Assembly: GCA_938074205.1 (NCBI GenBank)
Contig: CALJES010000012.1
Span: 1-64,000 of the forward strand
Direction: 5' to 3'
Length of the DNA stretch: 64,000 nucleotides
DNA from: an uncultured bacterium
Lineage (GTDB): Bacteria; Armatimonadota; UBA5829
Part shown: piece after piece, positions 22,518 to 27,160 of the stretch
Layout: each line of letters begins with the position of its first letter
Position numbering within the stretch: position 1 is the stretch's first letter
Program-made: the position numbers and the translations under genes
The notes under the pieces: model-generated
What the model saw: only the letters and a program-made list of their open reading frames with translations
Databases searched by the model: none
What the model was told of the DNA's origin: nothing

Positions 22518-22652
22518 ATGAAACGCACTTACCAACCGAAGCGCAGGCGAAGGCAGCGCGTGCACGGCTTCATGGTGCGCATGGCTTCCCGCAGTGGTCG
22601 AAAGGTGCTAAAGAGGCGTAGGCAAAAAGGCAGAAAGGTCTTAGCGGCTTAG
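22518..22652 (+). CDS. rpmH: 50S ribosomal protein L34
   Basis: L34 is a tiny basic protein of the large ribosomal subunit. The 44-codon gene encodes [18 protein letters not shown], then [21 protein letters not shown], the universal L34 pattern. AAGGAGAT lies 13 nt upstream of the ATG. It opens the conserved rpmH-rnpA-yidD-yidC-jag-mnmE operon. No dnaA precedes it, in contrast to the classic origin-linked arrangement. Confidence 0.97.
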
Positions 22653-22812
22653 TAAGTTATTAGTTTCTGCCTCAGGGCCGTGTTCTATCGGAGCGGAGGA
22701 TACCTCAGCGCGAGGGTCTTGGACAAACGGAAGGCGGAGGCAATCTATAATCTCACAACAGGCCGCGGAAACATTGTCCAGAGTGAGAGATGGCTGCGGT
22801 TTTGTACTTTGG

Positions 22813-23220
22813 ATGCTACCGCAATCTGCTAGGCTAAAGCATAAGTCCGATTTCAATCGGGTCTACGCGAAAGGGAGGTCCTATTCAACGGACCTCGTTG
22901 TAATGTACGTGGCGCCGACTCGCGCTGAGAACACACGGGTAGGGTTTTCCATAAGCAGCAAGGTCGGAAAGTCAGTCGTGCGCAACAGAACTCGAAGACT
23001 GCTGCGGGAGGCTGTTCGACTGCTGCTGCCCGTAATCAGACAGAACTGCGATATAGTAATAATCGCGAAGAAGAAAGCCGCGGACGCCGACTTTTGGGAG
23101 ATATACTCAGCTGTTGAGAAGCTGTTTCGAAGAGCAGGATTGCTGGCTGGTATGAACAATTCCCATCAAAGCCGAGCTTGGGCTTCCAACGAAGCCACCG
23201 AGCGCAAATGTTCGGCGTAA
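22813..23220 (+). CDS. rnpA: Ribonuclease P protein component
   Basis: RnpA is the protein cofactor of RNase P, which matures tRNA 5' ends. The 135-residue product starts at ATG 22813 (MLPQSARLKHKSDFNRVY); the upstream in-frame ATG at 22774 would add 13 residues unlike the family. It contains the RNR motif (VGKSVVRNRTRRLLREA) and the basic strand GFSISSKVGKS. The C-terminal tail of about 20 residues after ...RRAGLLAG is longer than usual. It follows rpmH by 160 bp, an uncommonly wide gap. Confidence 0.95.
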   Translation: MLPQSARLKHKSDFNRVYAKGRSYSTDLVVMYVAPTRAENTRVGFSISSKVGKSVVRNRTRRLLREAVRLLLPVIRQNCDIVIIAKKKAADADFWEIYSAVEKLFRRAGLLAGMNNSHQSRAWASNEATERKCSA

Positions 23221-23226
23221 ACCCAC

Positions 23227-23442
23227 ATGTTGCGCCGAGTTATCGTGTTCCTGATACGAGGTATATACCAGCAGGCTTCCAAGCGGTTTTGGCCTAGATA
23301 CTGCCGATTCCAGCCGACCTGCTCTGAGTATATGGCGCAGGCTATTGAGAAATACGGTTGCGCCCGAGGAATATGGATGGGGATCTGCAGAATAGTCCGA
23401 TGCAACCCGTGGTCCGCTGGAGGAGACGACCCTGTTCCATAG
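23227..23442 (+). CDS. yidD: Membrane protein insertion efficiency factor YidD
   Basis: YidD is a small membrane-associated protein that aids YidC-dependent insertion. The 71 residues contain the family signature: GIYQQASKRFWPRYCRFQPTCSEY (conserved Cys pair, given here only as landmarks), AIEKYGCARGIWMG and RCNPWSAGGDDPVP, the terminal motif. It lies 6 bp after rnpA and ahead of yidC, as usual. No clear Shine-Dalgarno site is seen; coupling to rnpA is likely. Confidence 0.95.
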   Translation: MLRRVIVFLIRGIYQQASKRFWPRYCRFQPTCSEYMAQAIEKYGCARGIWMGICRIVRCNPWSAGGDDPVP

Positions 23443-23470: not shown

Positions 23471-24793
23471 ATGACAGTGTCAAGAAACCATTATCGAGAG
23501 ATGACAACAAATCTGCTGCTGGCCGTTGTTGCTATATTGCTTGCGCTTTTCATAATCTTTTCGTCTGCTGCTTTTGCTGAAACGAAGGCTGATGAGATTC
23601 TACGCCAAGCCGACAGGGCGGCTGGTAGCGCCTTGAGCGCAAAGCGCACCATCGAACGCAACGAGCAGTTCAAAAAAGCCGTCGAGCTCTACGGAAAAGT
23701 CGGCGGCGACAAGATGTACCTAGGCACACCGCAAGGTGCAATAGCACTGCTAAAGCTGGCTGTGCTACAGAAGAAAATGGCTGCCCTGCAGACGGAAAGA
23801 AAACAGGAAACTACCCACCTCTACGCAGCATACGAAACACTGAAACGGCTAGTCAACATCTATGACAAGCCAGTTCGCAAACTGGAGGAAAAGCTTACCA
23901 GAACTGAAGCACGGGAAGTCAGGCGAATCGTAGACGAAGCTTACCGCGCGAAGGAAGAAGTCGCTGGCAGGTTGGACAAAATCAACTCCAGCGATTGGAA
24001 ATACCAACTCGTAGACGTGCTTGTTCGTGCAACAGGGCGGATACCATCGTTTAGTTACTGGTTTGCCATCATTCTAATAACCGTCATAGTCAAGATTTTG
24101 CTGACGCCTCTCACGAAAGCGCAGTTCAAAGCCATGAAGGAAATGCAAAAGGTCGCTCCCCTGATCAAAAAGGTCCAGGAGGAGTACAAGGGCGACCAAA
24201 AGGCAATCGGCGAAAAGACTATGGAAATCTATAGGCAGCACAAGATTAATCCTTTTGCAAGCTGCCTGCCGCTCCTCATCCAGATGCCGATTCTGATGCT
24301 TCTTTACTATACGATACGCAGCTACGAGTTTCAGTTCGCCAAAGGTACTTTCCTGTGGATCGGCAGCGGGTTGTCACATATGGCGTCGTTGCCGGTAATG
24401 TTTAACCCGGGTTCGCTCGTGTGGTTTACGGCAAAGAACCTAGCCGAACCGGACTTGCTGCTTGTGATACTGTATGTAATCAGTATGTACGTGTCAACCA
24501 AGCTCTCAGCTGTCGATCCCACCCAGGCTGAACAACAGAAGATGATGTCGATAATGATGCCGGTGATGTTCGCGTTCATATTCGCCGGATTCCCTTCTGC
24601 GTTTTTGCTCTATTGGTTGGTGTTCAACATTCTGCAGACTGCTCAGCAGTATATGATACTCAAAGCCCCTGCAGGAGAGGCGACAGTCGTCGAATCAGTT
24701 CAGCCTCAAGCTAACCCAGACAATTCGGGGTTGACGGAAGGCGATTCGCAGAAAATGAAAGTGAAAGCCAAGAGACGCAAACTGAAGAAGTAG
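23471..24793 (+). CDS. yidC: Membrane insertase YidC with helical periplasmic domain
   Basis: YidC inserts and folds inner-membrane proteins. The 440-residue protein has TM1 at about residues 12-36, then about 150 residues outside the membrane, then the conserved five-TM insertase core from about residue 195 (SYWFAIILITVIVKILLTPL, ...INPFASCLPLLIQMPILMLLYY), followed by a basic tail (KVKAKRRKLKK). The core arginine-containing groove region (LTPLTKAQFKAMKEMQ) is present. The external domain is rich in K, E, A and L with TPR-like helices (FKKAVELYG, GAIALLKLAVL) and not beta-rich as in proteobacterial YidC. The length falls between the Gram-positive and Gram-negative types. An alternative ATG lies at 23501. 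Confidence 0.93.
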   Translation: MTVSRNHYREMTTNLLLAVVAILLALFIIFSSAAFAETKADEILRQADRAAGSALSAKRTIERNEQFKKAVELYGKVGGDKMYLGTPQGAIALLKLAVLQKKMAALQTERKQETTHLYAAYETLKRLVNIYDKPVRKLEEKLTRTEAREVRRIVDEAYRAKEEVAGRLDKINSSDWKYQLVDVLVRATGRIPSFSYWFAIILITVIVKILLTPLTKAQFKAMKEMQKVAPLIKKVQEEYKGDQKAIGEKTMEIYRQHKINPFASCLPLLIQMPILMLLYYTIRSYEFQFAKGTFLWIGSGLSHMASLPVMFNPGSLVWFTAKNLAEPDLLLVILYVISMYVSTKLSAVDPTQAEQQKMMSIMMPVMFAFIFAGFPSAFLLYWLVFNILQTAQQYMILKAPAGEATVVESVQPQANPDNSGLTEGDSQKMKVKAKRRKLKK

Positions 24794-24882: not shown

Positions 24883-25683
24883 TTGAAAGAGATCGAAGCG
24901 AGCGGAAGAAACCTTGAGGAAGCCTTGCGGACTGCTGCCCAGCGGCTTGGAGTGAGCCCAGACGCTGTCGAATACGAGATCATAGAAGAGGGCAGCAGAG
25001 GTTTTTTGGGTTTAGGACAGACCCCCACTGTCATAAAGGCGCGTGTTAGAGAATTAGGCAAGATAGGGTCAGAGCCTTGCCTTGAGGAAACGTCAGATGC
25101 TCCTGAAATGCCGGGGTCAGAGGCAACCTCTGAGGAAGAAGCTCAGGAGGAATTCGAAGCACACGAGCAGCCGATGGAAGAGACTGGACTCGAAAGCCAT
25201 CCTGCCCAGCCTGCGGAAAACGAAACTGAGTTGCTTGTTGAAACCATCCTCCGCACCGCACGGGAGATAATCGCACCGATGAAAGTTAAAGCCCAACCCG
25301 TGCTGAAATCGAAAAGTTCCGAAGAAATAGTCATAGACTTGGTGGGGCCGGAGGTTGCAATACTGATAGGCAAGCGTGGCCAGACATTGGACGCACTGCA
25401 GTATTTAACCGGAGTAATAGTGAACCGGCGCGTCCGATGCAATCGCCGGATCATATTTGATGCTGAGAACTATCGGGCTCGGCACCAGGAAATGCTTGTG
25501 CGCAAAGCCAAGGAATATGCCAAAGCTGTTAAGGAACAAGGCAAGGAAGCAGTCCTAGAGCCGCAGTGTGCTCGCGACCGGAGGATCATTCATCTGGCAC
25601 TTGCCGACGATCCTGATGTATACACCTACAGCGAGGGCGAAGGTAAAGATCGCCACGTTGTGATCTCCCCGAAGAAGAAATAG
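24883..25683 (+). CDS. jag: RNA-binding protein Jag/KhpB
   Basis: KhpB (Jag, EloR) is a cytoplasmic RNA-binding regulator of cell elongation. The 266-residue protein has an N-terminal Jag domain (EIEASGRNLEEALRTAAQRLG, EYEIIEEGSRGFLGLGQ), an acidic linker of about 75 residues rich in E, a KH domain with a GKRGQTLDALQYLTG loop, and a C-terminal R3H domain (ARDRRIIHLALADD). The TTG start at 24883 follows TTGGAGGCGG. The linker is longer and more acidic than in short homologues. It directly follows yidC, its usual neighbour. Confidence 0.95.
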   Translation: MKEIEASGRNLEEALRTAAQRLGVSPDAVEYEIIEEGSRGFLGLGQTPTVIKARVRELGKIGSEPCLEETSDAPEMPGSEATSEEEAQEEFEAHEQPMEETGLESHPAQPAENETELLVETILRTAREIIAPMKVKAQPVLKSKSSEEIVIDLVGPEVAILIGKRGQTLDALQYLTGVIVNRRVRCNRRIIFDAENYRARHQEMLVRKAKEYAKAVKEQGKEAVLEPQCARDRRIIHLALADDPDVYTYSEGEGKDRHVVISPKKK

Positions 25684-25750: not shown

Positions 25751-27160
25751 ATGTCCGCAACGGATGATACAATAGCTGCTATTGCTACGCCTATTGGCAT
25801 CTCGGGAATCGGCGTAATCCGCATCAGCGGGCCTCAGTCGCTGGACGTTGCCGCGAAAGTTTTCCGAGCAACAAAAAGCGCAGACGTAAAAACATTTCCT
25901 TCCCACACTGCGCATCACGGCAAACTCGTTAACCCGCAAACTGAGGAGCCTATTGACGACGTCGTCCTTACAGTGTTCAGAAAGCCCAAGAGCTACACAG
26001 GGGAGGACGTGGTTGAACTTTCTTGCCACGGCGGTATAGCCGTGCTGAAGAGTGCCTTAAACGTTGTCTTGGAGAACGGAGCAAGGCTGGCCGAACCTGG
26101 GGAGTTTACGAAGCGGGCGTTTTTGAGCGGCAAGATCGATCTTGCCCAGGCTGAATCGGTAAACGATCTTATACGCGCCAAGACCGACAGAGCTCGTAGA
26201 GTTGCACTCGCCCAACTGGATGGCGCACTCTCCTCGCGGGTTAAAGCGGCCCAAGATCGTATTCTTAGCGTGTTGGCAGCGCTGGAAGCGGCGATAGATT
26301 TTCCAGAAGACGTGGAGGAGCCGCACCCGGCATGGCTGGAATCGGAGATCGGCTCTGCCCGCGACGTTGTGGCAAGGCTACTGCAGACCTTCTCGACGGG
26401 CAGGATATACCGTGAAGGCGTGCGCGTAGCGATAACCGGAAGAGTTAACGTGGGAAAGTCGAGCCTACTAAATGCCTTGCTTCGGCACGCCCGCGCAATA
26501 GTCACGCCAATTCCCGGTACTACGCGCGATGTGATCGAGGAAGGATTGGAGATTCGAGGTATCCCAATCGTCGCAATTGACACTGCGGGCTTGCGCTCCA
26601 CTCAGGACCCTGTTGAACAAATCGGTGTAGAGCTGGCCGAGCGAACGCTTCAATCTGCCGACTTGGCGCTTTTGGTCATCGATGCTTCTCAGGGCGTACT
26701 GGACGCTGATGTTGAAATAATGCGCCGACTCAGAGGGAAGTCTGTCATCGTGGTGATCAACAAGGTAGATTTAGTGCCGTCGGGTATACAGTCGATACTC
26801 GCTGAGCAGTGTAAGCAAAGCTTTGCCAAAGATGTGCCAGTTGTGTTTACCAGTGCCCTCGAAGGTCGTGGAATCGAAGACCTCGAGAACGCTATAGCAA
26901 GCTCCGTGGAAAGTGTAGGCATATCGGATTTAGCCGCAGCTGAGACCGCCGTGGTGAGTAACATGCGACATCAGCAGGCTTTGCGTTCTGCCCTTCACAG
27001 TCTAGATCAGGCGCTTAAGACTCTGCGCTCGCGTGAGCCTTTAGATCTGCTTTCAGTGGACTTGACTGCAGCACGATACGCGCTGGGACTCATTACGGGC
27101 GAAACCGCCACGGACGATCTCCTCGAAAGAATCTTCTCTGAGTTTTGTATCGGTAAATAG
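25751..27160 (+). CDS. mnmE: tRNA modification GTPase MnmE
   Basis: MnmE with MnmG makes the 5-carboxymethylaminomethyl modification of wobble uridines. The 469-residue protein has the N-terminal tetrahydrofolate-binding domain (DTIAAIATPIGISGIGVIRI), a G domain with GRVNVGKSSLLNALL (G1), DTAG (G3) and NKVD (G4), and the C-terminal FCIGK with the essential cysteine. AGAGG precedes the ATG. It is the last gene of the rpmH operon. MnmG is not adjacent, so the pair is split in this genome or its partner lies outside. Confidence 0.97.
   Translation: MSATDDTIAAIATPIGISGIGVIRISGPQSLDVAAKVFRATKSADVKTFPSHTAHHGKLVNPQTEEPIDDVVLTVFRKPKSYTGEDVVELSCHGGIAVLKSALNVVLENGARLAEPGEFTKRAFLSGKIDLAQAESVNDLIRAKTDRARRVALAQLDGALSSRVKAAQDRILSVLAALEAAIDFPEDVEEPHPAWLESEIGSARDVVARLLQTFSTGRIYREGVRVAITGRVNVGKSSLLNALLRHARAIVTPIPGTTRDVIEEGLEIRGIPIVAIDTAGLRSTQDPVEQIGVELAERTLQSADLALLVIDASQGVLDADVEIMRRLRGKSVIVVINKVDLVPSGIQSILAEQCKQSFAKDVPVVFTSALEGRGIEDLENAIASSVESVGISDLAAAETAVVSNMRHQQALRSALHSLDQALKTLRSREPLDLLSVDLTAARYALGLITGETATDDLLERIFSEFCIGK

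Follow-up and report, generated by a model that had tools for sequence, protein, structure and literature searches.

The yidC locus and its insertase core

The stretch of DNA analysed here (64,000 nucleotides, hereafter the window) carries an open reading frame for a 440-residue protein that the initial annotation had called a YidC insertase, an identification confirmed by matches to PF02096 and TIGR03592 over the core. The gene, the parts of its product and its neighbours are as follows:

22518..22652, + strand: rpmH, 44 aa (frame translation; named by reading of the sequence)
22774..23220, + strand: rnpA (PF00825, 7.1e-31 on 22819-23217; start uncertain, with an alternative at 22819)
23227..23442, + strand: yidD, 71 aa, containing FQPTCSEYMAQAIEKYG (frame translation; named by reading of the sequence)
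23471..24793, + strand: yidC, 440 aa (PF02096, E 4.5e-50; TIGR03592, E 5.8e-55)
23471..23578, + strand: hydrophobic segment of YidC, residues 1-36, a probable signal peptide ending SSAAFA/ETK (hydropathy, AxA motif)
23585..23989, + strand: TPR-like helical external domain, residues 39-173 (AlphaFold2 (AF2) models; hhalign, 97.1%)
23996..24034, + strand: linker helix, residues 176-188, within KYQLVDVLVRATG (helix in the AF2 model)
24056..24661, + strand: insertase core, residues 196-397 (PF02096; alignment to E. coli YidC in the PDB)
24662..24790, + strand: C-terminal tail with the basic end KMKVKAKRRKLKK (sequence)
24883..25683, + strand: jag/khpB (PF14804, PF13083, PF01424)
25751..27160, + strand: mnmE (open reading frame; named from the sequence alone)

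The order rpmH-rnpA-yidD-yidC-jag-mnmE is the normal setting for yidC, and this open reading frame is the only one in the 3.02-Mb genome to match PF02096 at E ≤ 0.001. The nearest loci to the window gene are in Armatimonadota MAGs (best-segment identity 89%, 75%, 52-53% and 47%). The host thus belongs to that phylum, and the protein is its ordinary housekeeping YidC, encoded by a single gene copy.

Its core scores far above the family cut-offs (170.2 bits against 35 for PF02096, 186.3 against 84.3 for TIGR03592) and aligns with that of E. coli YidC in the PDB, with K208 opposite an arginine that we take to be the cationic residue of the hydrophilic groove. Across 139 aligned rows this position holds K in 70, R in 57 and other letters in 12. 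A positive charge in the groove is described as strictly conserved in YidC/Oxa1/Alb3 proteins (PMC8920935). The AF2 model of the core has low pLDDT and helices compatible with five TM segments, of which hydropathy resolves four stretches; the earlier remark that the TMs of the core are normal in appearance fits the family matches and K208.

The N-terminal segment had been labelled TM1, but it is probably no permanent anchor. Hydropathy peaks at residues 15-33, and what follows reads, as a motif, like the end of a signal peptide (SSAAFA/ETK). Given AFA/ET, residues 1-36 are probably a cleavable signal peptide with an AxA site, and the helical domain would then form the mature N-terminus, outside, on the trans side.

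A predicted helical external domain and its TPR-like orthologues

Ahead of the insertase core and after TM1, the initial annotation had described some 150 residues rich in K, E, A and L with the helices FKKAVELYG and GAIALLKLAVL. Both motifs are present in the window YidC, and the 160 residues that separate the hydrophobic segment from the core contain 11% K, 9% E, 14% A and 11% L. Structure prediction, which had been set beforehand as the test of the proposal, returned a helical segment, so that a beta-rich or disordered outcome is excluded at the level of prediction. In the full-protein AF2 model of the window YidC, run with four relatives, blocks within residues 41-170 had pLDDT values of 77-93, with a low-confidence core, and helices lay at 39-56, 60-79, 87-106, 110-131 and 144-173. 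Modelled alone (residues 36-190; mean pLDDT 90.0, pTM 0.82), the domain contained helices at 4-21, 25-44, 52-70, 75-96, 100-103, 109-138 and 141-153 in construct numbering, and zero strands. The helices of the full-protein model are longer and less regular than the canonical tandem antiparallel TPR pairs (~34 residues), and their packing was read only from fold matches.

In VIA-align comparisons the domain model resembled BamD (Z 13.2-14.1; for 5efr, Z 14.1, rmsd 1.8, 102 aligned residues, 20% identity) and the TPR chain 8zht_B of a PpiD-YfgM structure (Z 12.3, range 12.2-12.3; rmsd 1.6, 91 aligned), with many 14-3-3 proteins scoring equal to or above the TPR proteins; Z values up to ~13-14 are common for helical models and can reflect a generic helical arrangement. 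Foldseek against the PDB gave no match below E 1e-3 (best 0.017), and absence of a family from the fold lists was given no evidential weight. The fold comparison therefore agrees with a TPR relationship but is unspecific, and the TPR claim rests on sequence profiles.

Searched singly, the window protein matched zero TPR families in Pfam, and its significant matches across Pfam, NCBIfam and PDB sequences were confined to the core. We therefore brought in orthologues. They came from 137 of the 277 PF02096-bearing Armatimonadota genomes, represented all 45 families and gave 138 non-redundant external regions, the genomes being hand-picked among the matches listed together with 30 chosen genomes. 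Seven of 145 Armatimonadota loci had been set aside, namely five exact duplicates and two loci (L003 and L036) with no in-frame N-terminal segment; for one locus in which no hydrophobic segment was detected (L067), the entire stretch before the core was taken. The linker helix holds the sole two columns at or above 90% (Y and V) in this set, and we infer that it occupies the place of EH1 in E. coli YidC.

Among these regions, 20 of 138 matched Pfam TPR_6 at E ≤ 0.01, and one (L125) matched TPR_12 at 3.1e-8. A profile of all 138 found a consensus TPR (1.7e-10), BamD (3.5e-8) and CpoB (1.8e-6) in the PDB. We also chose by eye a reference set of 16 TPR-like Armatimonadota external regions, the Pfam match of L125 being already known; checked after the choice, 12 of the 16 matched TPR_6, and the best PDB matches of their profile were BamD (2.2e-10) and alpha-SNAP (5e-10). 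BamD/YfiO and CpoB are thus the best natural bacterial PDB chains by sequence profile, BamD also being a close fold match, but they are other proteins in other places (outer-membrane assembly and cell division, respectively).

The window's own family (13 sequences) gave fainter direct matches, with TPR_6 in three members (best E 0.017) and PDB TPR chains at 0.0014-0.011. For profile-profile comparison, the last 38 residues were removed from the family alignment, so that the shared linker could not drive a match. Aligned with the reference set by hhalign, the trimmed profile reached 97.1% (E 7.1e-11, 78 columns), against 0.4-0.5% for reversed controls. As a single sequence, the external segment of the window YidC scored an hhalign probability of 34.5 with the TPR profile, a value attained by none of 271 other 122-residue segments (maximum 5.9). 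These came from 106 open reading frames of the window and ten loci; frames carrying YidC core motifs were removed, and two or more YidCs of other phyla stayed among the rest.

When each family in turn was compared in the same way, its own members being excluded from the target, the probability reached 90% in 16 of the 45 families, 80% in 21 and 50% in 29, and no reversed control exceeded 7.8%; the other 16 families stayed below 50%, five of them (f4, f7, f17, f19 and f20) below 6%. An HMM of the 16 reference regions, searched with own-family members kept, matched 87 of the 138 regions (E < 1e-3), spread over 35 of the 45 families, against one of 138 reversed sequences, and it detected the window YidC at 1e-5. 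The count was 71 of 122 without its own members and 66 of 116, in 27 families, beyond the eight source families; ten of the 45 families had zero matches. In f19 and f20 (L044, L047, L048 and L051, among others) the external regions are similar in length or longer, with no TPR signal detected; they may be drifted TPRs or have another fold.

These data support, at the level of sequence, homology between the window's external domain and the corresponding regions of the TPR-bearing orthologues. A helical bundle unrelated to TPR, similar through composition alone, would account for the lack of a direct Pfam TPR match, the 14-3-3 proteins at the head of the structural list and the weak Foldseek E-values. 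Against it, both the reversed sequences and the 271 segments stayed near zero, compared with 97% for the family profile; moreover, the Pfam matches of the TPR-positive orthologues fall at the same position of the same gene. We consider such a bundle highly improbable. The profiles and the confident model support the original description as helical and TPR-like; a reservation is that the window protein by itself matches no Pfam TPR model and that the Foldseek E-values are weak. The external domain is most likely a divergent TPR-type superhelix of ~135 residues.

Distribution and history in Armatimonadota

The P1 domain of E. coli YidC (PF14849) is a beta-supersandwich; it occupies the same place, after the N-terminal hydrophobic segment and ahead of a core of the same type, whereas the external domain of the window YidC is helical and TPR-like. 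PF14849 had zero matches at E ≤ 0.001 in the window genome, and the model of the window domain is strandless. Above its cut-off, PF14849 was found in two of 291 Armatimonadota genomes (G230 and G193) and in six of eight other-phylum loci. TPR families were absent from all eight of the latter, and hhalign to the TPR profile gave 0.8% or less for the six compared, a truncated locus (L009) and one without an external domain (L010) being excluded from that count.

In G230 the match (E 4.9e-22) fell on a second yidC copy, L016 (G230:C251:1466-2017, - strand), in a genome that also carries a TPR-like copy, L127. Besides G230, seven genomes (five in f24, one in f26 and one in f45) had weak matches (E 7.9e-5 to 5.9e-4); in the six with a PF02096 gene the match lay on a different contig from yidC, and the seventh (G276) had no PF02096 match. 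One of the seven, G193, exceeded the cut-off solely when in-frame neighbours were included. In the window protein, a match to NF002351 that starts at residue 96 and lies far below its cut-off was not counted as evidence for P1.

In a tree of the core (83 rows), 74 Armatimonadota rows split from eight other-phylum rows with support 100/99; the tree was midpoint-rooted, held two rows per family and few other phyla, omitted four truncated rows and represented the window yidC by L001 and L002. L016 fell on the other-phylum side, and we therefore read it as foreign or contaminating, that is, as the result of transfer or contamination. The simplest reading of the sequences is that the helical domain has been vertically inherited within Armatimonadota. 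Because the HMM matches lie in 35 of 45 families, the TPR-like YidC variant is widespread through the phylum rather than one odd gene, the comparison with other phyla covering eight loci.

The N-terminal segments are more varied. By motif rules alone, 24 of the 138 carry a lipobox pattern (for example L004, L015, L073, L096, L110 and L123), 35 a strict AxA site and 79 neither, many of the last resembling plain anchors; the rules are imperfect, missing a GC after the hydrophobic stretch in some of the 79 and in at least one of the 35, and some few of the 24 patterns may be due to chance. The lipobox patterns suggest that lipoprotein YidCs occur alongside AxA and plain-anchor ones in the same phylum.

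Two further features of the external regions were noted. In f41-f45 (L026, L031, L034, L042, L101 and L109) they reach ~270-310 residues and have, by eye, an extra beta-looking stretch before the TPR-like part (in L031, ...VLSTYGIYHQG... GLPVIVTGIVE), perhaps an OB-like insertion. One MAG gene (L003), with the same sequence as L029, has an in-frame stop within the external region (L003:5226-5228), either a sequencing error or a real break.

The external regions are very divergent, with 7% mean column identity (n = 138) and, in 137 Armatimonadota YidCs, lengths of 123-360 residues, counted from the hydrophobic segment up to the core model and so with the linker. Such drift would be expected if little were demanded of the domain, that is, if a true TPR fold chiefly spaced or stabilised the core and bound no partner specifically; E. 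coli YidC is reported to remain functional after a large P1 deletion (PMC7618853). Against this, all 137 proteins keep at least 123 residues and the TPR-like signal extends over 35 of 45 families, which suggests selection to retain the domain. We regard a pure spacer as unlikely, though by no means negligible.

Possible roles and partners of the external domain

TPRs commonly mediate contacts between proteins. The initial suggestion that the domain could recruit chaperones or precursors is plausible. We lean, with somewhat better than even confidence, towards a divergent TPR-type superhelix that stands in for P1 as an extracytoplasmic docking scaffold on a normal YidC core. Removal of the signal peptide would leave a mature YidC that begins with the TPR-like domain, and this helical repeat domain would be placed on the outer (trans) face, joined to the core by the short conserved helix. 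There it could dock a partner outside the cytoplasm, such as SecDF, a PpiD/SurA-type foldase or some other factor associated with Sec, and keep it near substrates that emerge from the groove or from the lateral gate of SecY, thereby doing what P1 does in gamma-proteobacteria. In this scheme we infer the scaffold function, the identity of the partner and the outside location. E. coli P1 has been described as contacting SecD/SecF and probably emerging chains, and E. coli YidC as tolerating the loss of most of P1 (PMC7618853, PMC13174344); an external domain therefore need not be essential.

The window genome encodes candidate partners, namely SecDF and a PpiD-like protein, the latter being one of its two SurA_N_3 proteins; a parvulin with a lipobox (L167) is also present, and an Omp85 protein suggests an outer membrane. 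The PpiD-like protein, of 540 residues, has an N-terminal hydrophobic segment, SurA_N_3 and parvulin domains and, at its C-terminus, a TPR (TPR_19, 4.6e-6):

L166:1459-3078 (= G000:C6:286085-287704), + strand: PpiD-TPR fusion (SurA_N_3, parvulin, TPR_19)

Used as a single query, this protein had a match in all 28 genomes of its class and in at least 183 of 291 genomes of the phylum; among the matches listed, many extend into the TPR and some cover the parvulin or the TPR part alone.

In gamma-proteobacteria PpiD partners the TPR protein YfgM, whose TPR contacts PpiD and which also contacts SecG, and many bacteria have ppiD without yfgM, the counterpart being stated as unknown (PMC9643414). Together with the PpiD-like protein of the window genome and the resemblance of the fold to the TPR chain 8zht_B (Z 12.3), these reports would fit a YidC domain that substitutes for YfgM, binding the PpiD foldase and coupling it to the holotranslocon. 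The fold match is unspecific, however, with 14-3-3 proteins and BamD equally high, and the PpiD-like protein already bears a TPR of its own, which offers a simpler substitute and weakens the need for one supplied by YidC. We therefore hold this role of the YidC domain to be distinctly unlikely: the PpiD-TPR fusion is the more direct candidate for a YfgM substitute, and the YidC domain the second. PF09976 (TPR_21 of YfgM) was absent from the Pfam list of the window protein. YfgM is, like the window domain, an extracytoplasmic TPR beside the Sec machinery (PMC9643414), but it is a separate protein, whereas the window domain is built into YidC.

TPR grooves are able to bind peptides. The domain might thus act as a trans-side holdase that binds emerging substrate segments directly, and a hydrophobic cleft of E. 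coli P1 has been proposed to receive unfolded chains (PMC7618853); we consider direct substrate binding very unlikely, the docking scaffold being the reading that we prefer. An extension of the scaffold, tentative and rather doubtful, is a phylum-wide trans-side TPR hub in which the YidC TPR, the C-terminal TPR of PpiD and SecDF would hand over chains at the membrane exit.

EMC3 is an Oxa1-superfamily member. A TPR scaffold next to an insertase of this superfamily thus has a parallel in EMC2-EMC3, where EMC2 is, in contrast, a subunit of its own and lies on the cis side, in the cytoplasm; the TPR subunit EMC2 is described as organising the cytoplasmic platform of the EMC (PMC7785296). If real, the hub would be an extracytoplasmic mirror of EMC2 and would explain how PpiD works without YfgM. 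To our knowledge, Bacillus-type YidC/SpoIIIJ has no large external domain, and SpoIIIJ is a lipoprotein; these proteins share the core and, likely, a processed N-terminus with the window YidC, which adds a domain of ~135 residues.

Fusion of a TPR to an insertase of the Oxa1 family has a precedent in plant and green-algal mitochondrial Oxa2, where the TPR lies C-terminal to the core (PMC2706819). The TPR-like domain of the window YidC is, by contrast, N-terminal, probably trans-side and bacterial. We found no earlier description of a TPR in a bacterial YidC, or of Armatimonadota YidC as such, in the open-licence literature. The external domain probably sets a bacterial counterpart, on the trans side, beside the TPR that plant Oxa2 has at its C-terminus.

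The external domain of YidC is conserved in diderm bacteria, yet its role has been called undefined (PMC13174344). Armatimonadota, with an Omp85 protein in the one genome examined for it, present a natural domain-swap experiment: beta P1 is nearly absent, and its place is taken by a fold of the kind that docks proteins. If docking is the function of this domain, its partner should be findable.
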